64,000 nt of DNA. It comes from Polaribacter sejongensis. Lineage in GTDB: Bacteria > Bacteroidota > Bacteroidia > Flavobacteriales > Flavobacteriaceae. The number at the start of each line of letters is the position of its first letter. Within the stretch, counting starts at the first letter, position 1. The translations under genes and the position numbers were made by a program. The notes under the pieces were generated by a model. The model was not told the DNA's origin and did no database searches. It worked only from the letters and a program-made list of their open reading frames with translations. Shown here piece by piece: positions 9,592 through 61,017 of this stretch. The stretch lies in contig NZ_CP150667.1 in the NCBI RefSeq assembly GCF_038024065.1, positions 124,001 through 188,000 of the forward strand, read 5' to 3'.

Positions 9592-9606
9592 CAAAAAATA
9601 ATTTTG

Positions 9607-13065: not shown

Positions 13066-13077
13066 ATGATACAACTC

Positions 13078-13104
13078 AGCTGTAAGGTTTTTGCTTTACA
13101 GTTG
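13078..13104 (+). other. Hairpin after the phosphorylase gene
   Basis: CAGCTGTAA (13078-13086) pairs with TTACAGTTG (13096-13104), with one G-U pair, in the 67-bp gap before the GH30 gene. It has no T tract, so it may be a weak attenuator or an RNA-processing element. Confidence 0.4.
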
Positions 13105-13132
13105 GTGGAGTATTCGTAAAATATAGTAAGGA

Positions 13133-17687: not shown

Positions 17688-17697
17688 AATCTAAATT

Positions 17698-22609: not shown

Positions 22610-22610
22610 T

Positions 22611-35309: not shown

Positions 35310-35315
35310 AAAGAT

Positions 35316-39369: not shown

Positions 39370-39393
39370 ATTCTTTAAATTAAAAATTAGTAA

Positions 39394-42300
39394 TTAAAAT
39401 CCGATTTCAAGTCCAAAAATCAATGCTGATGTAAAAGGGACCATACTTCCTTGTCTTGTTCCTTCACCAAACTCCGGATCTAATCCATCTTTTATATTAG
39501 AAATTGTAAACAAATCGTTACCAGTTATAGATAAACGAATTTTATCCATTCCAAATTTTTCTAACACGTCTTGTGGTAATCCATATCCAATAGATATTGC
39601 TTTGGCTCTTAAATATGCAGCCTTAATAACATTAACATCATTTAAATTTCCATAATTCCATGTTTTTCTAGATCCGTTAAGAAAAGCTGCAGGGTATTCG
39701 GCATTTTGATTATCTGGTGTCCAGGTTTTATCTGTAAAAATCGGGTTTTGATTGGTCCACCATTGCATAAATGGATAAGAAAGAGAACCTGTTCTAACAA
39801 TATTTATGTCTGCAACTCCTTGAAAGAAAGCACTAAAATCGAAGTTTTTATAAGTGAATCCTAAATTAATACCAAAACTTTTATGAGGATTTGCATCGCC
39901 TACGTAAACTAAATCGTCTTCATTAATTATACCATCTTCATTAACATCTACACGGTTTACGGTTCCTGGTACTAAACGATCTGCACTTCTGTAATTAGGC
40001 AACTTTGTTTTGTTTTTCATGTCTGTTTGGTCTGAAGAATCTGTAAAACCATATTGGTTATAATAATCTAATACTTGACTCTCTGTAGATAATATACCAT
40101 CTGTTTTATATGCATATATTGCATTTAATGGTTTTCCTTCTACAATACTATTTTTACCTAAACCAATGGTTGTTTTTCCTTCCATTTTGGTAACTTCACC
40201 TTCATTATCCCAAAAAGCAAGACCAACACGGTATGTAAAATCATCTCCAATACGATCTCTCCAGTTTAAAGATAATTCATAACCCTTAGTTTTAAAATTA
40301 CCACTATTTGTTTTTGGAGCCGTAGCACCTATTATTTCTGGATATGTAATATTAACTAACATATCATCATTTTTACGAATAAAATACTCTGCACTACCTG
40401 ATAATCTATTATCTAATAGCCCAAAATCTACAGCAATATTACTTGTAGATACACGCTCCCAAGTACGGTTTAAAGATGTCATTCCGCTAATATTAGAGGT
40501 TGATGTTAATTGTGGCGTATTACCAAACAATACAGTACCATTACCAATACTAGAATAATAATCGTAAGCACCAATACCTGTTACAGAACCTGTTTCTCCG
40601 TATGATGCACGTAATTTTAATAAGTTAATTTTACTATCATCCATAAATGACATTTCAGAGAATACAATACCTGTAGAGGCTCCAAAGAAGTTTTTCCATC
40701 TATAGTCTGGGTGTAAACGAGAAGAACCATCTCTACGACCTAACGCTTCTAATAAATAAGTTTCTTTGTAATTGTAATTTATTTTCCCTAAATAAGATAC
40801 CAAACCAACTACATTACTTCCTCCACTATTTGTTTGTGTAGGAGTATCAAAAGCATTTAAATCATTTAGAGATGCATCAACTAAATTAGAACGAGACATA
40901 AAGTATTTATCTGTTTCTGACTGTTCTGCTGTATACCCTGCCATAACACCTAAATTATGATTTCCGAAAGAACGGTTGTAATTTATTTGAAAAGTATGGT
41001 TTTGAAATACGTAATCTGCCTCTGTTACCTCTAACTTAGAGTTAAATAATGTTGTTGGAGTACTTGTTTCGTTTCCTTCCCAATCGTACATTGTTACAGG
41101 TTTCCAAGTTTTATTTTTTCTACTTTGTGTCATTGCTATGTTTCCAAAGTAAGAGAAAGCTAATCCTTCTACGTATTTGTCTAAGTCTACCGAGATTTTA
41201 CCTCCTAAACGAAATACATTAGTACGGTTTATTACACGACCACCTTCTTTTAGATATGCAAGAGGATTGTTTCCTCCAAAATTATCGTAAAATTGTCCGT
41301 CAGGATTATACAGTGGAAAAATATTCATGTCTTGAATTCCAAATCCAATACCTTGTGTAGGTGTGTCTATAGTACTACTATTATAAGAGATATTAAAATC
41401 TGTTTTTATAAAATCATTTACTTTGTATCCTACATTTGTTCTAAAGTTGTAACGTTTTTGTCCGTCGTATACAAATGCTATTGGAGAGCGTTCGTTTGCA
41501 TACCCAAAAGATGTTCTGTAGGTTGCATTTTCATTACCTCCAGAAAGAGATAAATCATGTCTTTCTGTAATCGTTGTGCCATAAACAGCGTCAAACTGAC
41601 TAGTATCAGAAAAGTAATGATCATTACCAAATACATAAAAAGAATCTGGAGCTGTTGGTAATGTTCCGTTAGACATCATCTGAAACTGTTCTTCTGTAAA
41701 AAATCTAAAACTTGTTGCTGCTGTTTGAGCATTTCCATCACCATCAACAAAATCAATAGCATCATTTGTTGCTGCTGCTAACCATGCATCTGCAAATTCA
41801 CTCATATTTGCAACAGGGAATTCTTTAGGTAAATTTAATTGAGTTTCACCTTTATAAGTAATTCTCATTTTTCCTTGTTTCCCTTTTTTAGTAGTTACAA
41901 GTATAACTCCACCTGCAGCTTTAGTTCCAAATATTGCAGCAGATGCATCTTTTAATATAGAGTAAGTTTCTATATCATTTGCGTTAATTGCAGATAAGTC
42001 TCCTTGTGAAATTTCTACACCATCTAATAAAATAAGAGGACTAATGCTATTAACAGAAATGTCTCCACGAATGCTAATAGAAGTTCCTTCTACACCAGGA
42101 CGAGTAGATGAACGTGTTACCACTAAACCAGGAACCTCACCTTGTAATGCTAATACAGCACTAGATGTTCCTTTCCCTTTTATAACTTCGTCACCTTTTA
42201 CTTGTGCTACAGATCCTGTAAGTGTTGCTTTTTTCTGTGTACCAAAACCAACAATAACAATTTCATCTAATGTAGTAGAGTCGTATATAAGACTCACATT

Positions 42301-42645
42301 AATAGAGTTACTATTTCCAACAATAACTTCTTTAGTAACATAGCCTAAGTAAGAATAAACTAAAGTTGCATTTTCAGGAATACTAATAGTATAATTTCCA
42401 TCAAAATCAGAAACTGTACCAGTAGTTGTTCCTTTTACTATAATAGTTACTCCAGGAAGAGGCATTTTGTCTTCTGCTCCTAAAATTTGACCCGTTATAG
42501 TTCTGTCTTGGTTGTTGTCAAAAGAAGAATAAGTTGGTGTGGCTGCGTGCAACTGTGTAAATGAACCACAAATCACAAAGCCCACTATCCAAAATAGACT
42601 TGCGAAAATTTTCAGATTAATCTGACATTGTCTTAGTTTAGTCAT
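39394..42645 (-). CDS. SusC-like TonB-dependent receptor (region 4)
   Basis: Complete outer-membrane importer (1083 aa) with a signal peptide (LKIFASLFWIVGFVICGSFTQLHA), carboxypeptidase-regulatory-like domain (about 48-125: ITGQILGAEDKMPLPGV; TTGTVSDFDGNYTI), linker DEIVIVGFGTQKKATLTGSV, plug (IRGDISVNSISPLILLDGVE; FGTKAAGGVILVTTKKG) and barrel ending in SALIFGLEIGF. It is the first gene of a two-gene minus-strand operon that diverges from the ThuA-GntR-xylose operon across an 824-bp gap. No enzyme gene is attached on its own strand; its enzymes are probably those of the + strand operon from 51227. Confidence 0.96.
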   Translation of the reverse strand: MTKLRQCQINLKIFASLFWIVGFVICGSFTQLHAATPTYSSFDNNQDRTITGQILGAEDKMPLPGVTIIVKGTTTGTVSDFDGNYTISIPENATLVYSYLGYVTKEVIVGNSNSINVSLIYDSTTLDEIVIVGFGTQKKATLTGSVAQVKGDEVIKGKGTSSAVLALQGEVPGLVVTRSSTRPGVEGTSISIRGDISVNSISPLILLDGVEISQGDLSAINANDIETYSILKDASAAIFGTKAAGGVILVTTKKGKQGKMRITYKGETQLNLPKEFPVANMSEFADAWLAAATNDAIDFVDGDGNAQTAATSFRFFTEEQFQMMSNGTLPTAPDSFYVFGNDHYFSDTSQFDAVYGTTITERHDLSLSGGNENATYRTSFGYANERSPIAFVYDGQKRYNFRTNVGYKVNDFIKTDFNISYNSSTIDTPTQGIGFGIQDMNIFPLYNPDGQFYDNFGGNNPLAYLKEGGRVINRTNVFRLGGKISVDLDKYVEGLAFSYFGNIAMTQSRKNKTWKPVTMYDWEGNETSTPTTLFNSKLEVTEADYVFQNHTFQINYNRSFGNHNLGVMAGYTAEQSETDKYFMSRSNLVDASLNDLNAFDTPTQTNSGGSNVVGLVSYLGKINYNYKETYLLEALGRRDGSSRLHPDYRWKNFFGASTGIVFSEMSFMDDSKINLLKLRASYGETGSVTGIGAYDYYSSIGNGTVLFGNTPQLTSTSNISGMTSLNRTWERVSTSNIAVDFGLLDNRLSGSAEYFIRKNDDMLVNITYPEIIGATAPKTNSGNFKTKGYELSLNWRDRIGDDFTYRVGLAFWDNEGEVTKMEGKTTIGLGKNSIVEGKPLNAIYAYKTDGILSTESQVLDYYNQYGFTDSSDQTDMKNKTKLPNYRSADRLVPGTVNRVDVNEDGIINEDDLVYVGDANPHKSFGINLGFTYKNFDFSAFFQGVADINIVRTGSLSYPFMQWWTNQNPIFTDKTWTPDNQNAEYPAAFLNGSRKTWNYGNLNDVNVIKAAYLRAKAISIGYGLPQDVLEKFGMDKIRLSITGNDLFTISNIKDGLDPEFGEGTRQGSMVPFTSALIFGLEIGF

Positions 42646-42733
42646 AAATTATTTTTTTAAGTTAATTAATTTGTATCGATTTTCTTTGTTATTAAATCGT
42701 TAAACAATGTTAAAAATTATTAGAGAAACAGAT

Positions 42734-42775
42734 TGTAAATTAGTATTCAAAGGACATAAAATATCATCCATTTAA
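42734..42775 (-). promoter_or_regulatory. Shared 42-bp regulatory element, copy facing SusC
   Basis: Read on the minus strand it begins TTAAATGGATGATATTTTAT and continues with CCTTTG; it matches the copy at 51079 at 31 of 42 positions without gaps. It ends 88 bp before the SusC start codon and points in the direction of transcription. Confidence 0.65.
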
Positions 42776-43210
42776 TAAATTATACCCTGTTAAATCATTG
42801 ATATGAGGTTATTATCTCTTTTTTTTGTTAATTATGTAATGGTAATAGTATTTTAACATAATATTATATATGAATGTGTAATCTTTATTTTTACATGTTC
42901 TTTTTAGGTCTTTGAAAAGAATGTAAATCTGATTTTTTAATTGTGTTGAAAATTTTAACTTATAGAAGATACAATCTAAAAAGTGTGTTTTACTTAATTA
43001 GTTTGTTGGTTTAATTTCAAAATTGAATAAAAATTACTTAGAGAATAAGAATTGTGGAGTTTAAAAAGCATTTAATTATTATATTTTAAGAGATGAATTG
43101 ATAGTTGTTATTAATGTATGCTGTTAAAAATATAAATATACTTTTATTAAACGTTTTTAGAGAGTTTAAGTGTTAAAAAAAATGATGTTGATTTTAGATT
43201 TTAAAGACTA

Positions 43211-43252
43211 ATAAAAGGATTATGCTTTATGTAGTTTGCATTATAAGTTATG
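43211..43252 (+). promoter_or_regulatory. Shared 42-bp regulatory element, copy facing ThuA/xylose operon
   Basis: Begins ATAAAAGGATTATGCTTTAT and ends TTATAAGTTATG; 34 of 42 positions are identical to the copy at 51079, with no gaps. It lies 217 bp before the ThuA start codon in the direction of transcription. Confidence 0.7.
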
Positions 43253-43469
43253 CTAAGTTTTTGTTAATGATATTAATATTTTAAAGAAATAATTCTGTTT
43301 TTAAGTGTTTTTTTTATTCTGAAAATTATAGTTTTTATAAATTTATTTTTATTTAATAAAGTATTATATCAATTTTTTAAAATTTTAAATATATATTTAC
43401 ACTGTTGCATACCGGAACAGAACAGAATGATTTTAATGTAGTCTTTACACCAAATTTAAATTATTAAAA

Positions 43470-44231
43470 ATGTCTTATAAGAAAATAACTTTTATTGTTT
43501 TATTTCTATTAATTATAGTTGGTAGTATTCAGTCTCAAAATAGTAATCCAAATATTTTAGTTTTTTCTAAAACGGCAGCTTTTCGCCATAAATCTATTCC
43601 AGCAGGTGTTACACTAATGACCGAGTTGGGGGCTAAAAATAATTGGAATGTTAGCTTTTCAGAAAATTCTAATGATTTTACTGATGAAAATTTAAAAAAA
43701 TATAACGTGTTGGTATTCTTAAATACAACCGGAAATATTTTTAATGATCTGCAGCAAAAAGTATTTAAAAGATATATAGAAAAAGGTAATGGATTTGTAG
43801 GTATTCATGCTGCTTCCGATACGGAAAAAGAATGGGGTTGGTATAATGAAATGGTGGGAGCTACTTTTAAAGATCATCCAAAGGTGCAAAATGCAAGTTT
43901 GATGATTGACAAGTCTAGTAATCATCCTGCAGTTAATCACTTAAAAAAAGAAGAAGTTTTTAAAGACGAATGGTATAATTTTATAAACCCTGTTGCAAAA
44001 TACGTTAATGTATTGGCTTCTTTAGACGAAAGTTCTTATCAAGGAAAAAGAATGCATACAAAAAGACATCCAATAACTTGGTTTCATAATTATGATGGAG
44101 GTAGAGTCTTTTATACAGGTTTAGGGCATACAAATGAATCTTATACAGATGTTCGGTTTATAAAAATGATTGAAGGAGGAATTCTTTGGGCAGCAGGTTT
44201 AAAACAAATAAAAAAGCCATCTAAAGAATAG
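43470..44231 (+). CDS. ThuA-like domain protein, exported
   Basis: A 253-aa exported protein with a class I glutamine-amidotransferase-like fold of the ThuA family. After the signal peptide (FIVLFLLIIVGSIQSQ) come ILVFSKTAAFRHKSIPAG, YNVLVFLNTTGNIFNDLQQ, GFVGIHAASDTEKEWGWYNEMVGATFKDHP, HPITWFHNYDGGRVFYTGLGHTNESY and GGILWAAG, all family hallmarks. ThuA proteins occur in sugar loci, but their biochemical role is not settled, with ketosugar metabolism proposed for ThuA itself. It is the first gene of the xylose operon, 30 bp before the GntR regulator, so it is likely induced with sugar use. Confidence 0.9.
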   Translation: MSYKKITFIVLFLLIIVGSIQSQNSNPNILVFSKTAAFRHKSIPAGVTLMTELGAKNNWNVSFSENSNDFTDENLKKYNVLVFLNTTGNIFNDLQQKVFKRYIEKGNGFVGIHAASDTEKEWGWYNEMVGATFKDHPKVQNASLMIDKSSNHPAVNHLKKEEVFKDEWYNFINPVAKYVNVLASLDESSYQGKRMHTKRHPITWFHNYDGGRVFYTGLGHTNESYTDVRFIKMIEGGILWAAGLKQIKKPSKE

Positions 44232-44261
44232 TAACATATTTAAATAACAGCATAGAAAAAC

Positions 44262-45263
44262 ATGAATAAAAGTATAATTTCACTAACCATTAATCATGAA
44301 AGCGATATACCAAAATATCAGCAATTGGTAAATGCTATTAATGATGCTATTGGAGAAAATATATTACAAAAAGGAGATGCTTTACCTTCTGTAAACAAAA
44401 TTTGCAAAATGAGTAAGCTCTCTAGAGATACCGTTTTTAAAGCGTATTCAATTTTAAAAGAAAATGGTGTTATAGAATCTGTACCTAATAAAGGATATTA
44501 TGTAGCAAATGAAACTAAAAAAGTTTTATTACTCTTAGATACTTTTAAGGCTTATAAAGAAGTTTTGTACCATTCATTTGTTAATAATTTGCCAGATAAT
44601 ATTATTACAGATGTGCAGTTTCATCATTATAATATAGATAATTTTAAAACAATTTTAAACAATGCAGCCGGAAAATATTATAAGTATGTAGTTATGACTT
44701 TTAATAATGATGAGGTACCTTCTGTATTAGCAGACATTGATAATGATAAATTATTGTTGATAGATTGGAGCGTACATTCCAATACTAGTAATAATTATGT
44801 TTTTCAAGACTTTGGTAACTCTTTTTATGAAGCTTTAAAAGAAGCAGTAGATGTTTTTAGAAAGTATAAAGAACTGGTTTTTTTATATCCAACCTATACA
44901 TATCACCCGATAGAAACGATTACTTATTTTAAAAAATATTGTGAATTATTTCAATTTAAATATCAAATAGTTACAGATCCTAATGCTTTCTCTCTCCAAA
45001 AAGATGCTGCGTATATAAGCACAAGCGATAGAATGTTAGGTGTTTTTTTAGAACAATGTAAAATCAAAAATTTAGAACCTGGGGTTGATGTAGGTTTTTT
45101 ATCCTACAATGAAACACCAATGAAAAAATTTATTTATAAAGGAATATCAGTTATTTCAACAGATTTTAAAGAATTAGGAACCAAGGCTGCAGAGTTTGTA
45201 TTACAAGAAAAACCAATGCAGTATTATGTTCCAACAAAATTAATAATAAGAGAATCATTATAA
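44262..45263 (+). CDS. GntR-type HTH regulator with LacI-like sugar-binding domain
   Basis: Residues 1-75 are a GntR winged helix (IPKYQQLVNAINDAIGENILQKGDALPSVNKICKMSKLSRDTVFKAYSILKENGVIESVPNKGYYV). The remaining about 80-333 form a periplasmic-binding-protein-like effector domain of the LacI/GalR kind (VFQDFGNSFYEALKEAVDVFRKYKELVFLYP; GVDVGFLSYNETPMKKFIYKGISVIST; FKELGTKAAEFVLQ). This architecture is used for sugar-responsive regulators such as AraR. Lying 4 bp before xylulokinase, it is the obvious candidate for controlling xylose genes and the shared 42-bp element, with xylose or a derivative as effector (inferred). Confidence 0.92.
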   Translation: MNKSIISLTINHESDIPKYQQLVNAINDAIGENILQKGDALPSVNKICKMSKLSRDTVFKAYSILKENGVIESVPNKGYYVANETKKVLLLLDTFKAYKEVLYHSFVNNLPDNIITDVQFHHYNIDNFKTILNNAAGKYYKYVVMTFNNDEVPSVLADIDNDKLLLIDWSVHSNTSNNYVFQDFGNSFYEALKEAVDVFRKYKELVFLYPTYTYHPIETITYFKKYCELFQFKYQIVTDPNAFSLQKDAAYISTSDRMLGVFLEQCKIKNLEPGVDVGFLSYNETPMKKFIYKGISVISTDFKELGTKAAEFVLQEKPMQYYVPTKLIIRESL

Positions 45264-45267
45264 AATT

Positions 45268-46752
45268 ATGTATTACTTAGGATTAGATATTGGAAGCTCT
45301 TCCATAAAAGCTGCATTAGTAGAAATTGCAACCGGTAAAAGCTTGGGAGTTGTACAAGAACCCAAAGAGGAAATGAGCATGTTTGCTCAGAAAAACGGTT
45401 GGGCAGAACAGAAACCAAACGATTGGTGGCTACATATTTGTAACGCCATTACAAGTTTGAAAAAGCAATATAACGTTAGCAGAACCCAAATAAAAGGAAT
45501 TGGTATTTCTTATCAAATGCACGGTTTAGTGTTGGTAGATAAAAAAGGAGAACCACTTCGTAAAAGTATTATTTGGTGCGATAGTAGAGCGGTAGAGATT
45601 GGAAACAAGGCTTTTGCTGGAATTGGAACAGAAAAATGTGCTTCACATTTATTAAACTCACCAGCAAACTTTACAGCTTCAAAATTAAAATGGGTAAAAG
45701 AAAATGAGCCAGATATTTATAAGAAGATTTATAAATTTATGTTGCCAGGAGATTATGTGGCATATAAATTTTCAAACAAAATAAATACGACAATTTCAGG
45801 TTTATCAGAAGGTATCTTTTGGGATTTTAAGAACAATTCCGTAGCAGATTTCCTTTTAGAATATTACGGGATAGACAAATCTTTAGTACCAGATATTGTA
45901 GACACCTTCGGAATTCAATCTTTAGTGGATGAAAAAGGAGAGCAAGAAAGCGGTATTGCTGCCGGAACTCCAATTTATTACAGAGCCGGAGATCAACCAA
46001 ATAATGCACTTTCTTTAAACGTATTTAATCCCGGAGAAGTTGCTGCAACTGGCGGAACATCTGGTGTTGTATATGCGGTTACAGATAATTTATCAGGAAA
46101 AGAAAGTACGCGCGTTAACAATTTTGCACACGTAAATTATTCATCAGAAAATAAAAGAATCGGTAAGCTTTTAAATATCAATGGAGCCGGAATTCAGTAT
46201 CGTTGGTTGCTAAATAATTTGGATGTAAATTCTTATGAAGAGATGAATAATTTGGCTTCAGAAATTCCTGTTGGTTCAGACGGAGTTTGCTTAATTCCTT
46301 TTGGTAACGGAGCAGAACGCATGTTGAATAACAAAGAAATTGGTACACGTATCGTAAACATGAATCTAAATAATCATCACAAGGGACACATGTGTAGAGC
46401 GGCTTTAGAAGGTATTGCATTCTCTTTTGTATACGGAATAGAAATCTTAAAATCAGACGGAATTAAACTAAGTGTTATTAGAGCAGGAAACGATAATTTA
46501 TTTCGTTCAGAAATTTTTGCAAATACGGTTGCTACTTTAATTCAACAAGAAATAGAAATTTACAACACCACGGGAGCTATTGGTGCGGCAAGAGCGGCAA
46601 ACCTTCATACGGGAGATTTTGAGTCATTTAGCAAGGCAATTATGGACAATGATCACGTTATGACTTTTATGCCTTTTAAAGATCAAAAACCATATTTAGA
46701 AGCTTATCAAAATTGGAAAAAAGAGTTAGAACTCGTTTTAAATAATCAATAA
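45268..46752 (+). CDS. xylB: Xylulokinase (FGGY kinase)
   Basis: Cytoplasmic kinase converting D-xylulose to D-xylulose 5-phosphate. The FGGY fold is plain: N-terminal LGLDIGSSSIKAALVEI, QKNGWAEQKPNDWW, IKGIGISYQMHGLVLVDKKGEPLRKSIIWCDSRAVE with the substrate-binding MHG and DSR motifs, MLPGDYVAYKFS, GDQPNNALSLNVFNPGEVAATGGTSGVVYA, and CRAALEGIAFSFVYGIEIL. At 494 aa its length is normal. The following xylose isomerase gene confirms the pathway. The MHG and WCDSRA signatures fit xylulokinase better than glycerol or gluconate kinase. Confidence 0.95.
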   Translation: MYYLGLDIGSSSIKAALVEIATGKSLGVVQEPKEEMSMFAQKNGWAEQKPNDWWLHICNAITSLKKQYNVSRTQIKGIGISYQMHGLVLVDKKGEPLRKSIIWCDSRAVEIGNKAFAGIGTEKCASHLLNSPANFTASKLKWVKENEPDIYKKIYKFMLPGDYVAYKFSNKINTTISGLSEGIFWDFKNNSVADFLLEYYGIDKSLVPDIVDTFGIQSLVDEKGEQESGIAAGTPIYYRAGDQPNNALSLNVFNPGEVAATGGTSGVVYAVTDNLSGKESTRVNNFAHVNYSSENKRIGKLLNINGAGIQYRWLLNNLDVNSYEEMNNLASEIPVGSDGVCLIPFGNGAERMLNNKEIGTRIVNMNLNNHHKGHMCRAALEGIAFSFVYGIEILKSDGIKLSVIRAGNDNLFRSEIFANTVATLIQQEIEIYNTTGAIGAARAANLHTGDFESFSKAIMDNDHVMTFMPFKDQKPYLEAYQNWKKELELVLNNQ

Positions 46753-46765
46753 AAAAAGAAGTTTT

Positions 46766-46852
46766 TGGGCGTTCCTAAAAAGGTCGGGCTTTTCGTTTCA
46801 ATCTTTTTATTCGTACCTCATAAAAAGGATTTCCACTGCAATCCCTAACGCG
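46766..46852 (+). repeat. REP-like structured repeat between xylB and xylA
   Basis: An 87-bp segment that differs from its surroundings by higher GC. Its ends are complementary (GCGTT at 46769-46773, AACGC at 46847-46851) and enclose the motif GGTCGGGCTTTTCG and a hairpin (46800-46810 with 46820-46831). From memory, sequences of the form GGGCGTT...GTCGGGCT...ATCCCTAACGC are scattered through many flavobacterial genomes as an intergenic repeat. Confidence 0.6.
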
Positions 46853-46913
46853 AATGCAGTACATAAAATAACAATTACACGATTAAACAAATAAACACTT
46901 AAACAACATACAA

Positions 46914-48230
46914 ATGGCAAATAAAGAATATTTTAAAGGCATCAAAAAAATTCAATTCGAAGGCAAAGAATCAGACAATCCGTTAGCGTTTAAATACTAC
47001 AATCCAGAGCAAGTGGTTGCAGGAAAAAAAATGAAAGATTGGTTTAAATTTTCAATAGCCTATTGGCATACATTCTGCGGACAAGGAGGAGATCCTTTTG
47101 GACCAGGAACACAAAATTTTGCTTGGGATCAATCTTCAGACGCTATTCAAGCAGCAAAAGACAAAGCAGATGCTGCATTTGAATTCATCAACAAAATGGG
47201 GTTTGATTATTTCTGTTTTCATGATTATGATTTAGTACAAGAAGGCGCAACATTTGCAGAATCAGAAAAAAGATTAGAGATCATTACAGATTACATTAAA
47301 GGAAAACAAGCAGAAAGCGGTGTAAAATTATTATGGGGAACAGCAAACTGTTTTTCTAATCCACGTTACATGAACGGAGCTGCTACAAATCCAGATTTTG
47401 ATGTAGTTGCAAGAGCAGGTGGTCAAGTAAAATTGGCTTTAGATGCTACTATTAAATTAGGCGGAGAAAACTACGTGTTTTGGGGAGGAAGAGAAGGTTA
47501 TATGTCTTTATTAAATACAGATATGGGACGTGAATTAGACCACATGGGCCAATTTTTAACCATGGCAAGAGACTATGCAAGAGCGCAAGGGTTTAAAGGA
47601 ACCTTCTTTATTGAGCCTAAACCAATGGAACCAATGAAACACCAATATGATTTTGATTCGGCTACAGCTATCGGATTCTTAAAAGAATACGGTTTAGATA
47701 AAGATTTTAAAATAAACATTGAGGTAAACCATGCAACTCTAGCACAACATACCATGCAACACGAATTGGCTGTTGCAGCTAAAGCAGGAATGTTAGGTAG
47801 TATTGATGCAAATAGAGGAGATTACCAAAACGGTTGGGATACAGATCAGTTTCCAAATAACATTCAAGAAACTACAGAAGCGATGTTAGTATTTCTACAA
47901 GCAGGTGGTTTACAAGGGGGGGGAGTTAATTTTGATGCAAAAATCAGAAGAAACTCTACAGATTTAGAAGATGTTTTTCATGCGCATGTTGGTGGAGCAG
48001 ATACGTTTGCTAGAGCGTTACTTACGGCAGATAAAATTTTACAATCATCTTCATATAATTCATTAAGAGAAAAAAGATACAGTTCTTTTGATGGAGGAAA
48101 AGGAAAAGATTTTGAAGGTGGTAAATTAGAACTTACAGACTTGTACAAAATTGCGCAAGAAAATGGCGAATTAAGTTTACAAAGCGGTAAACAAGAGTTA
48201 TTCGAAAACATTATTAATCAATATATATAA
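46914..48230 (+). CDS. xylA: Xylose isomerase
   Basis: Cytoplasmic metal-dependent isomerase, D-xylose to D-xylulose. The 438-aa length is that of class II enzymes. Catalytic and metal-binding segments are all visible: [11 protein letters not shown] (catalytic His and Asp), [18 protein letters not shown] (metal Glu region), [55 protein letters not shown] and [26 protein letters not shown]. It contains a run of eight G at about 47916-47923 inside the GGGV codons. Separated from xylB by 161 bp containing a REP-like element and followed by a terminator. Confidence 0.97.
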
Positions 48231-48239
48231 AGAGAAAAG

Positions 48240-48273
48240 ACCTTTTAGATTTAAAAATCTAAGAGGTTTTTTT
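48240..48273 (+). terminator. Terminator after xylA
   Basis: ACCTTTTAGATT (48240-48251) pairs with AATCTAAGAGGT (48256-48267), with two mismatched positions in the stem, followed by seven T. It may reduce read-through into the transporter gene. Confidence 0.8.
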
Positions 48274-48337
48274 ATATACATATTATTTTAAACTACACTT
48301 TAGCAGAAGTGGTAGAAACAATTAACTAAAACATATT

Positions 48338-49759
48338 ATGGCAAATTCAACAAATTCAGGATACCTTATAAAACTAACCTTAGTGGCAACTTTGGGAGGT
48401 TTATTATTTGGGTATGACACCGGTGTAATTTCTGGAACAGTAGGTTCTTTAGATAGTTTTTTTGTAATCCCCAAAGGGATGTCAGAAACAGCCGCAAGTG
48501 CTTTTAAAGGATTTTTAGTTTCAAGTGCATTAATAGGCTGTATTATTGGTGGTCTGTTTGGAGGAGTTATCAGTAAAAAATTAGGAAGAAAAAAAGGGTT
48601 GATTTTAGCAGCTGTTTTGTTTTTAATATCCGCATTAGGTTCTGCAATGCCAGAAATGTTTATAGCGCCTATTGGTGAATTAGATCATACGTTTTCAACC
48701 GTTTTTATTGTGTATAGAATTATTGGAGGCATTGGAGTAGGTTTAGCATCTATGTTGTCTCCGTTATACATAGCGGAAATTGCACCCGCAGGTAGTAGAG
48801 GTAAATTAGTGTCATTTAATCAACTAGCTATTGTTGGTGGTTTTATGGTGGTTTATTTTGTAAACTACTTTATTTCAAGAGGTGGAGGTTCTGATGCATG
48901 GCTAAATGAAATTGGATGGAGATGGATGTTTGCATCAGAAGTAATTCCTGCAGGTTTATTTTTAGGGCTTTTATTCTTTGTACCAGACACACCACGTTCT
49001 TTAGTGTTGCGTAACAAACCAGAAGAAGCGTTAGAGGTATTAGTAAAAGTAAATGGAGAAAAAGAGGGGGTTAAAATTTTAGCAGAGATACAAGATTCGA
49101 TGAATGATACATCATCAGGAAGCTTGTTGTCTTTTGGATGGTTAGTTATTATAATAGGAGTTTTGTTATCTATATTTCAACAATTTGTAGGTATTAATGT
49201 CGTGTTGTACTACGCTCCAGAAATTTTTAAAACTATTTCAACGGGTACAGATAGTGCGTTATTAATGACCATTATAGTAGGTGTTGTAAACTTCTTATTT
49301 ACCATTGTAGCGGTAAAAACTGTAGATAAATACGGTAGAAAACCACTAATGATTATTGGAGCTTTAGGTATGGCGATAGCCATGTTATCATTAGGTTTTG
49401 TTTTTTATTCAGGTGCAACTGGTTATTTAGCATTGTTTTGTATGATGTTGTATGTAGCAAGTTTTGCAATGAGTTGGGGACCGGTTACTTGGGTGTTATT
49501 AGCAGAAATTTTTCCAAATAAAATTAGAGGAAAAGCTTTAGCAATAGCAGTTGCTGCGCAATGGGTTTCTAACTATTTAGTGTCTTTAACTTTCCCAATG
49601 ATGAATGATAATTCTTATTTAACAGGTTTATTCAATCATGGATTTGCATATTGGGTGTATGGTATCATGAGTATTTTAGCGATGTTATTTATCATGAAAT
49701 ACATTCCGGAAACAAAAGGAAAAACTTTAGAGGAAATGGAAAAACTTTGGAAAAAATAA
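48338..49759 (+). CDS. xylE: MFS sugar porter, XylE-type D-xylose:H+ symporter
   Basis: Inner-membrane sugar transporter with 12 helices. The sugar-porter signatures are present: GGLLFGYDTGVISG, KKLGRKKGLILAA, RIIGGIGVGLASMLSPLYIAEIAPAGSRGKLVSFNQLAIVGG, PDTPRSLVLRNKPEEALEVL, QQFVGINVVLYYAPEIFK, DKYGRKPLMIIGA, WGPVTWVLLAEIFPNKIRGKALAIAVAAQW and PETKGKTLEEMEKLW. Its position after xylA supports D-xylose as the substrate. A second, different XylE-like porter is encoded at 53607. Confidence 0.93.
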   Translation: MANSTNSGYLIKLTLVATLGGLLFGYDTGVISGTVGSLDSFFVIPKGMSETAASAFKGFLVSSALIGCIIGGLFGGVISKKLGRKKGLILAAVLFLISALGSAMPEMFIAPIGELDHTFSTVFIVYRIIGGIGVGLASMLSPLYIAEIAPAGSRGKLVSFNQLAIVGGFMVVYFVNYFISRGGGSDAWLNEIGWRWMFASEVIPAGLFLGLLFFVPDTPRSLVLRNKPEEALEVLVKVNGEKEGVKILAEIQDSMNDTSSGSLLSFGWLVIIIGVLLSIFQQFVGINVVLYYAPEIFKTISTGTDSALLMTIIVGVVNFLFTIVAVKTVDKYGRKPLMIIGALGMAIAMLSLGFVFYSGATGYLALFCMMLYVASFAMSWGPVTWVLLAEIFPNKIRGKALAIAVAAQWVSNYLVSLTFPMMNDNSYLTGLFNHGFAYWVYGIMSILAMLFIMKYIPETKGKTLEEMEKLWKK

Positions 49760-49785
49760 CCTTAAAAATTAAATTATAAAACAGG

Positions 49786-49827
49786 AATAAGCTTCGTTGA
49801 AGCTACAGTTTTTAAACGAAGTTTATT
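49786..49827 (+). other. Hairpin between xylE and the transketolase relic
   Basis: AATAAGCTTCGTT (49786-49798) pairs with AACGAAGTTTATT (49815-49827), 12 standard pairs plus one G-U; a smaller GCTTC/GAAGC hairpin lies inside it. There is no T tract, so it is an attenuator or RNA end-protecting structure, not a classic terminator. Confidence 0.5.
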
Positions 49828-49840
49828 ATAAGAAATAAAC

Positions 49841-50320
49841 ATAAACAATAAAATAGACCAACAATCAGCAGATAATATTAGAGCATTATGTGTTGCCATA
49901 GTAGAAAAAGAAAATTCAGGACATCCAGCAGGTCATACGGAAGGTGCAGATTTTATGCACATCTTATATTCAGAATTCTTTAATTTTGACCCTTTGGATA
50001 TCAAGAAGCTTTAGCAGCAGAAAAAGGAGGTTATTTGGTAAAAGAAGTAGTAAATCCTGATGTAGTATTAATTGCCAATGGTTCTGAAGTAGCAACATTA
50101 GTAGCTGCTGCAGAAATTTCAGAAACTGAAAATGGTTTAAAAGTAAATATTGCTTCTGTAATTTCTGAAGGAGTATTTAGGTTACAATCTAAAGAATATC
50201 AGCAAAGCGTTATTCCTAAAAACAAACCATTATTCGGCTTAACAGCAGACTTACTAGTAAACTTAGAAGGTTCGGATTAGATCATTTTGGGTATTCTGCA
50301 CTAGCAAACATCTTAGATGA
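49841..50320 (+). pseudogene. tkt: Transketolase relic with large internal deletion
   Basis: From 49841 the frame reads NNKIDQQSADNIRALCVAIV, then the altered GHPAGHTEGADFMHILYSEFFNFDPLD (normally GHPGGPMGGADF), which is the transketolase N-terminus; the start codon position holds ATA. At about 50000 the frame shifts and jumps to the transketolase C-terminus: YQEALAAEKGGYLVKEV, PDVVLIANGSEVATLVAAAE, IASVISEGVFRLQSKEYQQS, then after a further small deletion and frameshift near 50273, GLDHFGYSALANILDD. About 500 central codons with the thiamine-diphosphate site are gone, so the protein cannot work. An intact copy presumably exists elsewhere. Confidence 0.9.
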
Positions 50321-50558
50321 TATTTCTACAGATGGGTTAAATTTAATATCAGAAATGAGATTAATTTATGATAATTACGGATTTAAATCTAAAATTTTGG
50401 CAGCATCTGTATGTAATACAATGCATGTTATTAACTGTGCTAAATTAGGTTCTGATGTAATGACAGGACCTTTATCATCTATTACAGGACTGTTAAAACA
50501 TCCTTTAACAGATAGTGGATTGGCACAATTTTTAGAAGATTATAAGAAGGGGAATTAG
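50313..50558 (+). pseudogene. tal: Transaldolase C-terminal relic fused to the transketolase relic
   Basis: In frame with the transketolase remnant, the sequence continues LDDISTDGLNLISEMRLIYDNYGF, KSKILAASVCNTMHVINCAKLGSDVMTGPLSSITGLLKHPLTDSG and FLEDYKKGN, the last about 80 residues of a small transaldolase. The normally conserved Arg-His of AASxRHTMH has become Cys-Asn. The join lies at an LDD shared by both proteins (TTAGATGA, 50313-50320), as expected from deletion between short homologies. The catalytic Lys region is absent. Confidence 0.85.
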
Positions 50559-50567
50559 TAGTGTTAA

Positions 50568-50610
50568 GTTGCACTGTTTTTAATGCTATAAAAGCAGTGT
50601 AACCTTTTTT
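50568..50610 (+). terminator. Terminator after the tkt/tal relic
   Basis: GTTGCACTG (50568-50576) pairs with CAGTGTAAC (50595-50603), one G-U pair, followed by six T. It still marks the end of the former xylose/pentose operon. Confidence 0.75.
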
Positions 50611-51051
50611 ATCTTTTTAAATAAAGATTCTTTTGTGGTAAGTTATTCTTTGGCTTTTACAAATTGTATATTTTTCTTTATTTATTATTAATTCACAATC
50701 ATATCTATTTTTTTTTTGTTTTTGTCATTCTTACTTTCTCTACAATATATAAGTACAAAATTGATCTTGTTATTAATTGTTTCATTCATAATTAAAGTAA
50801 ATAAGCTACTATTATTAGTAACTAAATTTTTTGAAATTAATTTTCTATTATAAAAGGTTTCAAAAAGTGAGGTATTATGACAGTTTTATCTTTTTTTAAT
50901 AATTTGATTATCAGATATAATTTATAACCTTAAAATTGATTTTTTTTAAGTCTTATTATTTATAAGAATTAATAATACCTCTATAGACATTAGGATTACA
51001 GCTATAGATTTATTTGGGTTTTTTCTTGACTTATTTCTAATAAAGGCAGTT

Positions 51052-51071
51052 TCACCCTTTAAAATGGGTGA
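51052..51071. promoter_or_regulatory. TCACCC-GGGTGA palindrome upstream of the shared element
   Basis: TCACCC (51052-51057) and GGGTGA (51066-51071) are perfect inverted half-sites around an eight-base A/T centre, ending 7 bp before the 42-bp element. This suits a dimeric regulator. No similar palindrome was seen beside the other two copies of the element. Confidence 0.45.
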
Positions 51072-51078
51072 TAAGTAG

Positions 51079-51120
51079 ATAAAAGGATGATGTTTTATAG
51101 CCTTTGAGTTATAAGTTATG
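51079..51120 (+). promoter_or_regulatory. Shared 42-bp regulatory element, copy facing the GH88 operon
   Basis: Begins ATAAAAGGATGATGTTTTAT, continues CCTTTG and ends TTATAAGTTATG. It matches the copies at 43211 (34/42) and 42734 (31/42) without gaps, and lies 106 bp before the GH88 start codon in the direction of transcription. Confidence 0.7.
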
Positions 51121-51226
51121 TTCATTATTTAGTATTGTTATTATAATTGTAACCAGTATAATTGGGGTTGAATGTTTTTTTTCAACTCATAGTTTTAAAA
51201 AAAAAATCAATTAAAAAACAAATTAG

Positions 51227-52450
51227 ATGATAATCAAAAAAACATTAATGCTTTTAGCGGTGTTACTTATAGTAATATCATGCAATTCAACGAAAGAGAA
51301 AGAGACTGTAATACAATTAGATGCATTTAATACAAAAGAGGTATTAGATATCACCACCTTAAAGGCTAAAGAAGTTGCCTCAAAACTGGTGAGTGCAGAC
51401 AGTTTTCCTAGAAATATAGACAAGGGAAATAAAAATTGGAATTTTGTAGATGTAAAAGATTGGTGTAGTGGTTTTTACCCTGGAGCTTTATGGTTTGCTT
51501 ATGAATACGCTAAAGATGAAGAAATAAAGAAACAGGCAGAAAGATTTACATTACCTATTAAAGAAATAGCATATACAAAGGCAGATAATCATGATATAGG
51601 ATTTATGGTGTATTGTAGTTACGGTAATGGTTATAGATTAACGGGTAATGAAGCGTATAAAGAAGTTTTATTGGCAGCTGCAGATACTTTAGCTACTTTA
51701 TATAACCCTAAAGTTGGTACTATTTTATCTTGGCCAAGTCAAATGCATAAATTCAAATACAATACTATTATAGATAATATGATGAATTTAGAGTTGCTTT
51801 TTTGGGCAGCTAAAAATGGAGGGAGTAAAGATTTATATGACATTGCTAAAAGTCATGCAGAAGTAACCATGAAACATATTGTGCGTAAAGACAATGCTGT
51901 TTATCATGTTGGTTCTTTTGATGAAAATACAGGAGAATTTTTAAGAGGATACACGCACCAAGGTTATGCAGATGAATCTATGTGGGCAAGAGGACAAACT
52001 TGGGGTATTTATGGTTTTTCTATGGCATATAGAGAAACAGGAGAGCAAGCATTTTTAGATACAGCAATTAAATTATCTGATCATTATATGGAACGTTTAC
52101 CAGAAGATAAAATACCTTATTGGGATTTTGATGATCCAAAAATACCAAATGCACCTAAAGATGCTTCTGCTGCAGGAGTTGCTGCTGCTGGTATGTTAGA
52201 GTTGTCTACGTTGGTTAAAGATGAAAAATTAAAAGCAAAGTATTATAATGCAGCAGTGAGTTATATTAAAGAACTTTCTAGCGATAAATATTTAAGTGGA
52301 GATACAAACCAAGCTTTATTATTACATTCAACAGGTCATTTACCTCATAAATCAGAAATAGATGTACCAATTGTTTATGCAGATTATTATTATATGGAAG
52401 CGTTAGTGCGTTTAAATAAAATGCAAGAAGCTGCTTCTTTAAAAAAATAA
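51227..52450 (+). CDS. GH88 unsaturated glucuronyl hydrolase lipoprotein
   Basis: Removes the 4,5-unsaturated uronic acid left at the non-reducing end by polysaccharide lyases. A lipoprotein signal (LIVISCNSTKEK) precedes an (alpha/alpha)6 barrel. GH88 markers are NWNFVDVKDWCSGFYPGALWFAYEYA, the catalytic Asp in DNHDIGFMVY (D123), the second Asp in NTIIDNMMNLELLFWAAK (D183, 60 residues later as in Bacillus UGL), GYADESMWARGQTWGIYGF and PKDASAAGVAAAGMLEL. It is the first gene of a nine-gene operon and fits with the lyases at its far end. Confidence 0.94.
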   Translation: MIIKKTLMLLAVLLIVISCNSTKEKETVIQLDAFNTKEVLDITTLKAKEVASKLVSADSFPRNIDKGNKNWNFVDVKDWCSGFYPGALWFAYEYAKDEEIKKQAERFTLPIKEIAYTKADNHDIGFMVYCSYGNGYRLTGNEAYKEVLLAAADTLATLYNPKVGTILSWPSQMHKFKYNTIIDNMMNLELLFWAAKNGGSKDLYDIAKSHAEVTMKHIVRKDNAVYHVGSFDENTGEFLRGYTHQGYADESMWARGQTWGIYGFSMAYRETGEQAFLDTAIKLSDHYMERLPEDKIPYWDFDDPKIPNAPKDASAAGVAAAGMLELSTLVKDEKLKAKYYNAAVSYIKELSSDKYLSGDTNQALLLHSTGHLPHKSEIDVPIVYADYYYMEALVRLNKMQEAASLKK

Positions 52451-52487
52451 ATTAAAAAAGGATTTCTGTCTTAAAAACCATTTAAAA

Positions 52488-53573
52488 ATGAAATATTTTC
52501 TTCTTTTATTTATCGGATGTATTATGTCTACCAAGGCACAGAATGTCATTTTTGATAATTTAAAAGAAGCCCCAATTAATGGAGGTTTAGAAATGGAAAA
52601 TTATTGGGTTTGGGGAAGTTCGGTAATAAAAGGAGATGATGGCATTTATCATATGTACGCATCTCGTTGGCCAAAAATGTTACCATTTCACCCAGGTTGG
52701 ATGATTCAATCTGAAATTGTGCATGCAACTTCTAAAACACCAGAAGGACCTTATCAATTTAAAGATGTTGCTTTAGGAGAAAGAGGTGCACAATATTGGG
52801 ACGGGAAATCTTGCCACAATCCAAAAATTGTAAAATATAAAGACACCTATATTTTATACTATATGGGATCTACACATCCTTTTGAAGATGTTAATAAAGA
52901 AAATTTAAAAGACTTTAAATTAGGTAGTAAATGGAGTGTTGCTGCAAGATGGAGCAAACGCATTGGTATAGCAACTTCTAAAAATCCTTACGGACCTTGG
53001 GAGCGAAAAGAAACACCAATTTTAGATGTAAAACCGAATTCGTATTACAGTTATTTAACATCCAATCCATCACCATTAATAAAAAAAGATGGGTCTGTAG
53101 TTTTATTATTTAAAGGAAGAAGTTATAAAGAAGATGGAATAGCACAAAGTGATATGAGTATTGGTGTTGCTACAGCACCTCATTTTGATGGTAGATATAC
53201 TGTTGTTAGTGATGAACCATTATTTTCAATGGAAAAATTTGGAGAAGTTGAAGATCCTCATTTATGGAGTGATGATAAAGGATATCATATGATTGCAAAA
53301 GACCAAAGAGGATTATTAACAGGAGGAAAAGGTGATGGTCTTTTAGCACATTCTAAAGACGGAATTAATTGGGTTATTGATGATAAGCCAAAAGCATATA
53401 CGAAAACGATACAGTGGAATAATGGAAAAATAATTAAACAAGGACAATTAGAACGCCCTTTTGTTTTAGTTCAAGATGGAGAACCAACACATATCTTTTT
53501 TGCAACAATGAATGGTCCTGGAGGATTTGGCAACGGAACAAAAACTTGGAATATGGTTATTCCATTAAAGTAG
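52488..53573 (+). CDS. Five-bladed beta-propeller glycoside hydrolase (GH43/GH117-like)
   Basis: Exported 361-aa enzyme (signal LLLFIGCIMSTKAQ). Propeller blades with acidic residues are visible: MENYWVWGSSVIKGDDGIYHMYASRWP, HNPKIVKYKDTYILYYMGS, KRIGIATSKNPYGPWERKETPIL, SNPSPLIKKDGSVVLLFKGR, GEVEDPHLWSDDKGYHMIAKDQRG (likely the acid Glu/Asp region) and GQLERPFVLVQDGEPTHIFFAT (likely the third acidic site). It resembles proteins annotated as GH43, GH117 or sucrase-like in marine sulfated-polysaccharide loci. Substrate may be xylose or another capping sugar; the family number remains open. Confidence 0.75.
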   Translation: MKYFLLLFIGCIMSTKAQNVIFDNLKEAPINGGLEMENYWVWGSSVIKGDDGIYHMYASRWPKMLPFHPGWMIQSEIVHATSKTPEGPYQFKDVALGERGAQYWDGKSCHNPKIVKYKDTYILYYMGSTHPFEDVNKENLKDFKLGSKWSVAARWSKRIGIATSKNPYGPWERKETPILDVKPNSYYSYLTSNPSPLIKKDGSVVLLFKGRSYKEDGIAQSDMSIGVATAPHFDGRYTVVSDEPLFSMEKFGEVEDPHLWSDDKGYHMIAKDQRGLLTGGKGDGLLAHSKDGINWVIDDKPKAYTKTIQWNNGKIIKQGQLERPFVLVQDGEPTHIFFATMNGPGGFGNGTKTWNMVIPLK

Positions 53574-53606
53574 TATTAAAAAGAACAAACTAAAATAACA
53601 TATAAA

Positions 53607-54926
53607 ATGAACAAAAAAATATTATTATGGTCTATTACCGCAGCTTTAGCTGGGTTTTTATTTGGATTTGATGTAGTTGTTATTTCTGGAGCAGATCAAA
53701 AATTGCAAGCTTTATGGGGATCTTCAGATTCTTTTCATGGTTCTGTTGTTATGGGAATGGCGTTATGGGGAACCGTACTTGGAGCTATTTTTGGAGGCAT
53801 ACCTACAAACAAATTTGGAAGAAAAAATACACTTCTAGCAATTGGAGTCTTGTTTGCTGTTTCGGCAATAGGTTCTGCTTTAGCAAACGATCCTTATATA
53901 TTTGCTTTTGCTCGTTTTATTGGAGGAATTGGAGTAGGAGCTTCAACCATTGCAGCACCAGCTTATATTTCAGAAATTGCACCGGCAAAAGATAGAGGTC
54001 GTTTGGTTGCTATGTATCAATTTAATATTGTTTTCGGTATTATGATAGCGTATTTATCGAACTATTTATTAAGTGATATTGGCGAAAATGCTTGGAGATG
54101 GATGTTAGGTGTAGAGGCAATTCCTGCTATATTATATATGTTATTTGCGTTAAAATTACCTAAAAGCCCTAGATGGTTATTATCACAAGGAAAAGAAACA
54201 GAAGCTAGAGAAATCTTAAAATTTATAGATGAAAATGCAGATGTTGAAAAAGAAATTAGCGATTTTAATTCTCACAATGAAAAAAGTGATAAAACAGAAA
54301 CCATATTTCTTAAAAAATATAGATTTCCATTAATCTTGGTTTTTTTAATAGCATTTTTTAATCAGTTTTCTGGAATTAATGCCGTTTTATATTATGCGCC
54401 ACGTATTTTTGAAGCAGCAGGTTTAGAAGAAAGTTCAGCTTTATTAAATAGTATTGGTTTAGGAGTTACCAATCTTGTATTTACATTATTAGGTGTGTTT
54501 TTAATTGATAAATTAGGGAGAAAAACCTTAATGTATGTTGGGTCTGCTGCGTATATTATTTCATTAAGTCTTTTATCTGCAGCGTTCTTTTTAGAGTGGA
54601 CAGGTATGGCAGTTCCTTTGTTCTTATTCTTATTTATTGGTGCACATGCTATTGGGCAAGGAACCGTAATTTGGGTATTTATATCAGAAATTTTCCCGAA
54701 TCATTTAAGAGCTTCAGGGCAATCTTTTGGTAGTTCTACACACTGGATTTTAGCAGCACTTATTCCATCATTATTTCCTTTTATGTTAAAAGCAATTGGA
54801 GGTGGAATGGTATTCTTAGTTTTTGCAGGAATGATGGTTTTACAATTGCTATTTGTAGCTTTTATGATGCCAGAAACAAAAGGAAAAACATTAGAAGAAT
54901 TAGAGGATATTATTTTAAAGAAATAG
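53607..54926 (+). CDS. MFS sugar porter (second XylE-like symporter)
   Basis: Inner-membrane sugar transporter, 439 aa and 12 helices, with GFLFGFDVVVISGADQ, NKFGRKNTLLAIG, ARFIGGIGVGASTIAAPAYISEIAPAKDRGRLVAMYQ, LPKSPRWLLSQGKETEAREIL, NQFSGINAVLYYAPRIFEAAG, DKLGRKTLMYVG, GQGTVIWVFISEIFPNHLRASGQSFGSSTHW and PETKGKTLEELE. It is clearly diverged from the porter at 48338 and belongs to the polysaccharide operon, so it may carry a different monosaccharide (for example L-rhamnose, L-fucose, galactose) or serve as a second xylose importer. Confidence 0.92.
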   Translation: MNKKILLWSITAALAGFLFGFDVVVISGADQKLQALWGSSDSFHGSVVMGMALWGTVLGAIFGGIPTNKFGRKNTLLAIGVLFAVSAIGSALANDPYIFAFARFIGGIGVGASTIAAPAYISEIAPAKDRGRLVAMYQFNIVFGIMIAYLSNYLLSDIGENAWRWMLGVEAIPAILYMLFALKLPKSPRWLLSQGKETEAREILKFIDENADVEKEISDFNSHNEKSDKTETIFLKKYRFPLILVFLIAFFNQFSGINAVLYYAPRIFEAAGLEESSALLNSIGLGVTNLVFTLLGVFLIDKLGRKTLMYVGSAAYIISLSLLSAAFFLEWTGMAVPLFLFLFIGAHAIGQGTVIWVFISEIFPNHLRASGQSFGSSTHWILAALIPSLFPFMLKAIGGGMVFLVFAGMMVLQLLFVAFMMPETKGKTLEELEDIILKK

Positions 54927-54946
54927 TAAAAATAAACTTTTATAAC

Positions 54947-55759
54947 ATGAAAAATATATTCGGATTTATACTTTTTTGTTGCTGTTCACTTCAGCTTTTT
55001 GCAGCTAAAGTAGATACTTTAAATGTGTATAGTAAATCGATGAATAAGCATATAAAAAATGTAGTAATCACTCCAGATTCATATTCAAAAAAAGGAAAAG
55101 CATATTCTGTTGTTTATTTATTGCATGGAGCTGGTGGAGATTATAAAGCGTGGTTAAAAAAAGCACCAGAATTAAAAAAATATGCAGATTTATATAATAT
55201 AATTATCGTTTGTCCGGACGGAAACAAAACAAGTTGGTATTTTAATAGTCCTATTGATAAAACTATGCAATATGAAACCTATATTTCAGAAGAATTAGTT
55301 ACCGAAGTAGACAAATCGTTCAATACAATTATCAACAAAAATAATAGAGCAATTTCTGGTTATTCTATGGGAGGTCATGGAGCTTTGTATTTAGCTTTTA
55401 AACATCAAGATATTTGGGGAGCAACTGCAAGTATGAGTGGTGGTGTAGATATTAGACCGTTTCCTTTAGGATGGGATCTTTCAAAAAGATTGGGTGTTTA
55501 TGCTGATAATAAACAAACTTGGGAAAATAATACGGTAATAAATATGGTGTATTTATTAGATAAAACCAGTTTAAAAATTCTTTTTGATTGTGGTGTAGAT
55601 GATTTTTTTTATGATGCTAATGTAAGACTTCATAAAAAGTTATTACAAAGAAATATTCCGCATGATTATATAGAAAGACCTGGTGGACATACCAACAAAT
55701 ATTGGAGTAATTCTATAAAATATCAACTATTATTTTTCAACGATTTCTTTAATAATTAA
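54947..55759 (+). CDS. Exported alpha/beta-hydrolase esterase (CE1/esterase D-like)
   Basis: A 270-aa exported protein (signal GFILFCCCSLQLFAA) with the esterase D/CE1 layout. The sequence VYLLHGAGGDYKAWLKKAP gives the oxyanion region, IIIVCPDGNKTSWYFNSPIDKTMQYETYISEEL follows, and GYSMGGHGALYLAFKH holds the nucleophile S140. The remaining triad is probably D218 or D219 in DCGVDDFF and H248 in RPGGHTNKYW. Likely removes acetyl or other acyl groups from the polysaccharide before the glycosidases act; the acyl group is unknown. It lies 20 bp after the transporter and 6 bp before a sulfatase gene. Confidence 0.87.
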   Translation: MKNIFGFILFCCCSLQLFAAKVDTLNVYSKSMNKHIKNVVITPDSYSKKGKAYSVVYLLHGAGGDYKAWLKKAPELKKYADLYNIIIVCPDGNKTSWYFNSPIDKTMQYETYISEELVTEVDKSFNTIINKNNRAISGYSMGGHGALYLAFKHQDIWGATASMSGGVDIRPFPLGWDLSKRLGVYADNKQTWENNTVINMVYLLDKTSLKILFDCGVDDFFYDANVRLHKKLLQRNIPHDYIERPGGHTNKYWSNSIKYQLLFFNDFFNN

Positions 55760-55765
55760 ATAAAG

Positions 55766-57244: not shown

Positions 57245-57309
57245 TATTTACTCTTTAATTATATCAAATATATAGAACTGGTGTTAAATGTTAAAAAAAA
57301 TAAGATTAT

Positions 57310-59289: not shown

Positions 59290-59307
59290 ACACCATAAAA
59301 TATTAAA

Positions 59308-60975: not shown

Positions 60976-61017
60976 AAAGTAATTAAAAATAATAGTCATA
61001 AAATAGTTTTTATCCAG

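Follow-up and report, generated by a model that had tools for sequence, protein, structure and literature searches.

The operators of hybrid two-component systems (HTCSs) in gut Bacteroides have been predicted by comparison, with direct repeats proposed for 16 of the 36 HTCSs of Bacteroides thetaiotaomicron at an average distance of 21 bp; examples comprise 14-bp sites with a 6-bp spacer and 16-bp sites with a 5-bp spacer, and the HTCS dimers are proposed to bind one face of the DNA (PMC3878776, in the portions available). HTCS promoter fragments have been employed in binding assays (PMC11253607, likewise in part). The window analysed here is a 64,000-nucleotide stretch, bases 124001–188000 of the single-contig 4.5-Mb genome of Polaribacter sejongensis (G000), in which a 42-bp element stands upstream of three transcription units, with a fourth copy upstream of a transporter operon. 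Comparison within and beyond the genus indicates that the element is very probably the operator of an HTCS, held in a fixed register with the promoter, each copy probably being an activator-dependent promoter. In many flavobacteria, copies of the element probably activate a sizeable gene set for feeding on a complex polysaccharide, which is probably of algal origin.

51079–51120, forward strand: copy 1, before the GH88 operon; predicted HTCS-type tandem operator with units at 51085–51098 and 51106–51119.
43211–43252, forward strand: copy 2, before the ThuA-GntR-xylose operon; predicted tandem operator with units at 43217–43230 and 43238–43251.
42734–42775, reverse strand: copy 3, before the SusCD pair; predicted tandem operator with units at 42756–42769 and 42735–42748.
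33762–33829, forward strand: fourth copy, before the TRAP transporter; predicted operator and -7 box TAAATTTA, the units 20, not 21, bp apart.

The first three copies lie at the places and in the orientations given by the original prediction, whose identities to the 51079 copy (34/42 and 31/42) also hold, the third pair agreeing at 29/42; the blocks it named as shared fall within invariant columns of the alignment, and its distances of 217, 106 and 88 bases to the start codons are correct (coordinate differences of 218, 107 and 89). Their likeness is beyond chance. Matrices built from two copies score the left-out copy at 25.4–33.4 bits and the best other place in the window at 14.5–15.4, leaving a gap of 10.7 to 18.9 bits between the left-out copy and anything else there. 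The core GGATNATNNTTTATNNNNTTTG has three exact matches in the genome, namely the three copies from which the pattern was derived, and once up to two mismatches are allowed its frequency hardly exceeds that of its reversed control (82 versus 70). A genome-wide scan with a model of the three copies (R1) returns them at E values of 1e-9 to 7e-9, training sites included, and the next match at 0.02. All three are also recovered in the window (E = 2e-10, 5e-10 and 2e-5) by R3, a 71-column model built from 50 sites of other genera, and it is this model which corrects the earlier remark that no further copy was noticed in the other intergenic gaps: the match at 33762–33829 (E = 9e-7) ends 24 bp before the TRAP gene at 33853, and the next match in the window has an E value of 0.006. 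A weaker match (17.8 bits) precedes the orthologous TRAP genes of another Polaribacter genome, G130.

The element consists of two 14-bp units in direct repeat, 21 bp apart, each approximately GAAYnATAATTTAT. In an alignment of 27 sites from other genomes of the genus the matching units occupy columns 7–20 and 28–41, and among lags of 5–31 self-similarity is positive at 21 only, as it is in the 50 sites from other genera. Within single sites of the latter group the two units agree at a mean of 9.8 of 14 positions, compared to 4.5 in other registers; the three window copies agree at 8, 10 and 9 of 14. The same period emerges from a motif-free test, which counted repeats with at least 11/14 agreement at lags of 15–27 upstream of intergenic -7 boxes: 26 lag-21 repeats were found upstream of 366 boxes, with no more than two at any other lag.

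Bacteroidota sigma-A promoters are described as having a -7 box, TAnnTTTG, and a -33 box, TTTG (PMC7366714, PMC9723704, both in part). A box of the form TAnnnTTG occupies columns 64–71, downstream of the sites and beyond the 42-column matrix that found them. Counting it as present when four of its five specified letters match, it begins at column 64 in 45 of 50 sites from other genera, 23 of 27 sites from the genus and 13 of 14 in this genome, compared to averages of 1.6, 0.9 and 0.5 sites, respectively, at other offsets. In the window, the boxes of the first three copies are as follows.

51142–51149, forward strand: -7 box TATAATTG of copy 1, predicted transcription start at about 51154.
43274–43281, forward strand: -7 box TAATATTT of copy 2, predicted transcription start at about 43286.
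42705–42712, reverse strand: -7 box TAACATTG of copy 3, predicted transcription start at about 42700.

These starts follow from the position of the sigma-A box of Flavobacterium psychrophilum, at -12 to -5 in the available part of PMC9723704, which would put the downstream unit at about -48 to -35. As a tandem HTCS-type repeat is joined to a -7 box at one fixed distance, each copy is probably an HTCS-dependent promoter. The original statement that the element is not a general promoter is amended in that each copy is itself part of a promoter.

Two AraC-type HTCS genes lie in the same locus as the elements, at genome positions 246237–250412 and 255788–259936, the first of them 58 kb beyond the right edge of the window and with 81% identity to its G130 counterpart, both encoding Reg_prop, Y_Y_Y, HisKA, HATPase, receiver and AraC HTH domains. 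At E ≤ 1e-250 this HTCS is present in five of 166 Polaribacter genomes (G000, G046, G130, G136 and G026). R1 matched eight of the 166 at E ≤ 0.01, including three of the four other HTCS genomes and four of the 161 HTCS-less genomes, with one match each (G148, G151, G129, G033). A second model, R2, built from the 27 sites of the four other HTCS genomes and so untrained on G000 and the 161 others, matched all five HTCS genomes at E ≤ 0.001. In G130 three copies are packed into 6 kb, in a divergent layout like that of the window, preceding SusC, GH88 and a set of kinase, isomerase and transporter genes without ThuA and GntR, and in G136 copies precede GH88 and a gene row that holds a kinase, an isomerase and a transporter further on. 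The element loci of G046, G130 and G136 encode a protein of about 1396 aa, which in G136 has hybrid two-component system domains and to which both HTCSs of G000 are related.

A search of 397 genomes of the family gave 23 with an HTCS match at E ≤ 1e-230, this genome included. We compared 20 orthologous HTCS regions (54–71% identical, from 19 genomes of 17 other genera; one flank cut by the contig end) with 10 control HTCS regions (32–38% identical; two flanks cut), each reaching 20 kb to either side of the gene, using a 30-site matrix (three sites from here, 27 from the other genus genomes) and a cut of 18 bits. All 20 orthologous regions carry the element, in 50 matches of which some, from two genomes of one genus, are nearly alike; none of the 10 control regions does. 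Every one of the 50 is intergenic, although intergenic DNA makes up only 6–15%, and 47 lie no more than 300 bp before a start codon; the genes downstream encode, among others, SusC-like proteins and relatives of GH88, and do so in a region of 49% G+C as well. A hybrid two-component system encoded outside the window, offered originally as the alternative binder, is the best-supported candidate, and the likely binder in the window is the HTCS at 246237–250412, its paralogue at 255788, or both. Separately, a promoter site at 255577 precedes the second HTCS gene, which hints at control of one HTCS by the other or at autoregulation.

The predicted regulon is larger than the three polysaccharide units first proposed, though the idea of a shared operator pointing at polysaccharide genes stands. 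Across the whole genome R3 returns 12 sites at E ≤ 0.01, 11 of which fall within 157762–275775 (118 kb, approximately 2.6% of the genome) and one at 2335549; the binomial P of this clustering, 5e-17, is illustrative, as the bounds of the stretch were set by the matches themselves. R2 places five of six matches at E ≤ 0.01, and 12 of its top 14, in the same stretch, the cut of 14 having been chosen post hoc. The regulon predicted for this stretch comprises 11 promoters that are firm (E ≤ 0.01) and perhaps as many as 16. The 16 sites are all intergenic, with a start codon 24–190 bp downstream, in a stretch that is 91% coding, and they precede, among others, the genes for the TRAP transporter, SusC, ThuA, GH88, a GH29 fucosidase, a GDSL esterase, a heparinase-like protein, GH43, a sulfatase, the second HTCS, a second SusC-like protein and a GH95 protein. 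Sites thus stand upstream of SusCD and enzyme genes, which would serve one polysaccharide.

The original prediction had favoured a different binder, the GntR-type regulator encoded at 44262, and this gene does sit inside one of the three units. GntR dimers usually bind dyads, however, and the element is a direct repeat. We compared 80 loci around orthologues of this gene, the best 80 of 358 that encode a relative, the nearest orthologues found coming from Polaribacter. The 42-bp matrix gave two matches above 17 bits in these 80 loci (17.1 and 19.6), both from Flavobacterium and unconvincing beside the 42–47 bits of real copies, and the element is not conserved near the GntR orthologues there. 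A separate motif, approximately TTTRCATACCRGAACAGAACRGWAYGRT, is instead found in intergenic DNA of 70 of the 80 loci, all Flavobacteriaceae, at 90 sites. It was missed by a regular-expression palindrome search and a gapped-dyad count and came to light through k-mer counts, in which GAACAGAA turned up between genes in 75 of the 80 loci; our first pattern for it was too narrow, with four sites only. The 15 sites listed are located at most about 50 bp upstream of where the gene match starts. In a 184-kb stretch of this genome the motif occurs once, with a score of 38.9 against 6.3 for the next non-overlapping place:

43404–43432, forward strand: predicted GntR operator GTTGCATACCGGAACAGAACAGAATGATT, in the leader of the ThuA operon and distinct from the 42-bp element.

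At its left edge the motif looks like a -7 box and may therefore overlie a start site; in the window this box-like edge is weak. The ThuA-xylose operon is predicted to be under a second control through the GntR motif in its leader. G130 and G136 have the element and no close GntR orthologue (best 37% and 36%), while G036 has a GntR of 79% identity, yet no element match at the cuts used. G046 and G026 carry both, with GntR orthologues of 78% and 74%, though these lie away from the element-bearing locus. Between them the scan of the 80 loci, the element in G130 and G136 and the separate motif lead us to reject this regulator as binder, and we consider it very improbable that the element is its operator.

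It is also improbable, if somewhat less so, that another regulator of the same large locus (AraC, LacI or other) binds the element and the HTCS is a mere neighbour. HTCS and locus are co-inherited, and linkage alone is no proof of binding; but HTCS identity was the sole criterion by which the 20 regions from other genera were picked, and every one of them has the element, whose structure and period moreover fit the HTCS sites predicted in PMC3878776, as far as the available portions describe them. That the copies are housekeeping or alternative-sigma promoters working without an activator is scarcely credible: a -7 box does belong to the composite, but a plain -7 box has no need of a 14-bp tandem repeat, and the sites are clustered in one locus of the genome and absent from the 10 control HTCS regions. 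Several observations weigh against the HTCS itself or its proposed geometry. Under a stricter rule (TA plus two letters of TTG) the -7 box is missing in six of 27 genus sites and one of 14 here, and as the -33 motif was not found in Flavobacterium johnsoniae (PMC7366714, available part), replacement of a -33 box by the downstream unit is a positional statement only. The two HTCS paralogues are 55% identical, and either may serve the window. G026 has the HTCS and no R1 match, its sites having come from a widened matrix, while G120 and G148, among the 161 genomes without it, give one R2 match each. The regions from G537, G523 and G525a have single matches, that of G525a at 19.2 bits just over the cut. 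Taken down to E = 0.77, R3 gives 30 matches, of which 16 are in the locus and 14 elsewhere, and the firm match at G000:C1:2335549–2335610 (L404) is far from it. Finally, sites in other genomes were gathered by scans seeded with the window copies, so that neither R2 nor R3 contains a site of this genome, yet its influence persists in both; the -7 box and the lag escape that influence. The distant match at 2335549 precedes a gene whose product, truncated where the locus ends, has at least 494 aa and no Pfam match, and which is perhaps a distant regulon member.

What the sequence itself shows is the motif with its direct repeat, the -7 box at a fixed place, the association with HTCS orthologues and the separate GntR motif; ligand, phosphorylation, binding, activation and start sites are inferred. 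Operation of the element as an HTCS operator would run as follows. The AraC-type HTCS would use its propeller/Y_Y_Y part to sense a product of polysaccharide breakdown and become phosphorylated. It would then bind, on one face of the DNA, the two head-to-tail 14-bp units, whose 21-bp spacing corresponds to two helical turns. The end of the downstream unit falls at about the place of a -33 box, and the bound HTCS could thus recruit sigma-A polymerase to the -7 box 22 bp downstream. That HTCSs in general are class II activators of this kind, with a tandem 21-bp operator, the downstream unit at -33 and a -7 box 22 bp on, is a tentative suggestion which we hold to be rather less likely than not. 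The predicted geometry is seen in this one HTCS clade alone, which spans the present genus and 17 further genera, and in the 10 control HTCS regions the motif-free test gave no clear excess at lag 21 (two repeats against 0–1 at other lags; three against 1–6 with a looser cut).

The genes concerned belong to a very large locus which begins about 33 kb into the window with SusCD, GH88, GH97 and sulfatases and continues to its right with GH29, GH95, GH43, GH30, esterases and lyase-like proteins. On its left side the window holds a laminarin-type region with GH16, GH30 and GH17.

33853–36614, forward strand: TRAP transporter genes DctP-DctQ-DctM.
37477–42645, reverse strand: SusCD pair, SusD at 37477–39369 and SusC at 39394–42645.
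43470–49759, forward strand: ThuA, GntR regulator (44262–45263), FGGY kinase (XylB-like), xylose-isomerase-like protein and sugar MFS transporter.
51227–63693, forward strand: GH88, unknown protein, MFS transporter, esterase, sulfatase, GH97, sulfatase and unknown 891-aa protein.

The 891-aa protein (61018–63693) has no Pfam match, and relatives in G130 (74%) and G136 (77%); a 1153-aa protein at 9604–13065, amid polysaccharide genes, is likewise without a Pfam match. The ThuA gene of G136 (L174:6885–8450) carries a fused 3-keto-disaccharide hydrolase domain. A LytTR response regulator and histidine kinase pair lies between two SusCD regions of the window (21839–24248), and this regulator was set aside as binder of the element on a comparison by eye with the LytTR consensus. 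Adjoining laminarin-type genes on the left, L046 encodes a protein with Y_Y_Y and LuxR-type HTH domains (16868–19657), and at 12328–13500 the receiver domain of a response regulator is fused to a family 2 glycosyltransferase.

One flavobacterial HTCS clade thereby gains a predicted operator, a fixed -7 position and a regulon of 11 firm, perhaps 16, promoters, with exact bases for mutation and start sites for mapping. It would tie sulfatases, GH88, GH97, a fucosidase, a lyase-like protein, xylose genes and the TRAP transporter to one signal, and the ThuA-xylose operon, with its HTCS-type promoter and GntR motif, may be a case of integration between polysaccharide and monosaccharide signals. If the class II geometry were general, HTCS regulons could be read from DNA phylum-wide. 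Among the literature matches listed, titles and abstract openings yielded no flavobacterial HTCS operator that we noticed, and in the available portions of PMC3878776 and PMC11253607 we noticed no fixed distance between an HTCS site and a -7 box.

The GntR-type regulator at 44262 resembles GntR/periplasmic-binding-protein-type sugar regulators, of which AraR of Bacillus is an example, in its GntR HTH, its weak Peripla_BP_3 match and its possession of a motif of its own, which differs from the 42-bp element. Compared with Bacteroidota sigma-A promoters as portrayed in the available parts of PMC7366714 and PMC9723704, the -7 box here is of the same kind, whereas the downstream operator unit sits at the place of a -33 box, which flavobacteria may or may not use. 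The element itself fits the description of the B. thetaiotaomicron HTCS operators (Ravcheev et al. 2013, PMC3878776, in the portions available) and is classed with them: both are direct repeats of two sites about 21 bp apart, located upstream of SusCD and enzyme genes, with an AraC-type HTCS encoded in the locus. It differs from those operators in its sequence, GAAYnATAATTTAT, its Flavobacteriaceae host and its fixed distance to a -7 box, and the predicted regulon includes inner-membrane transporters and a sugar kinase, which were present in only two of the regulons described there.

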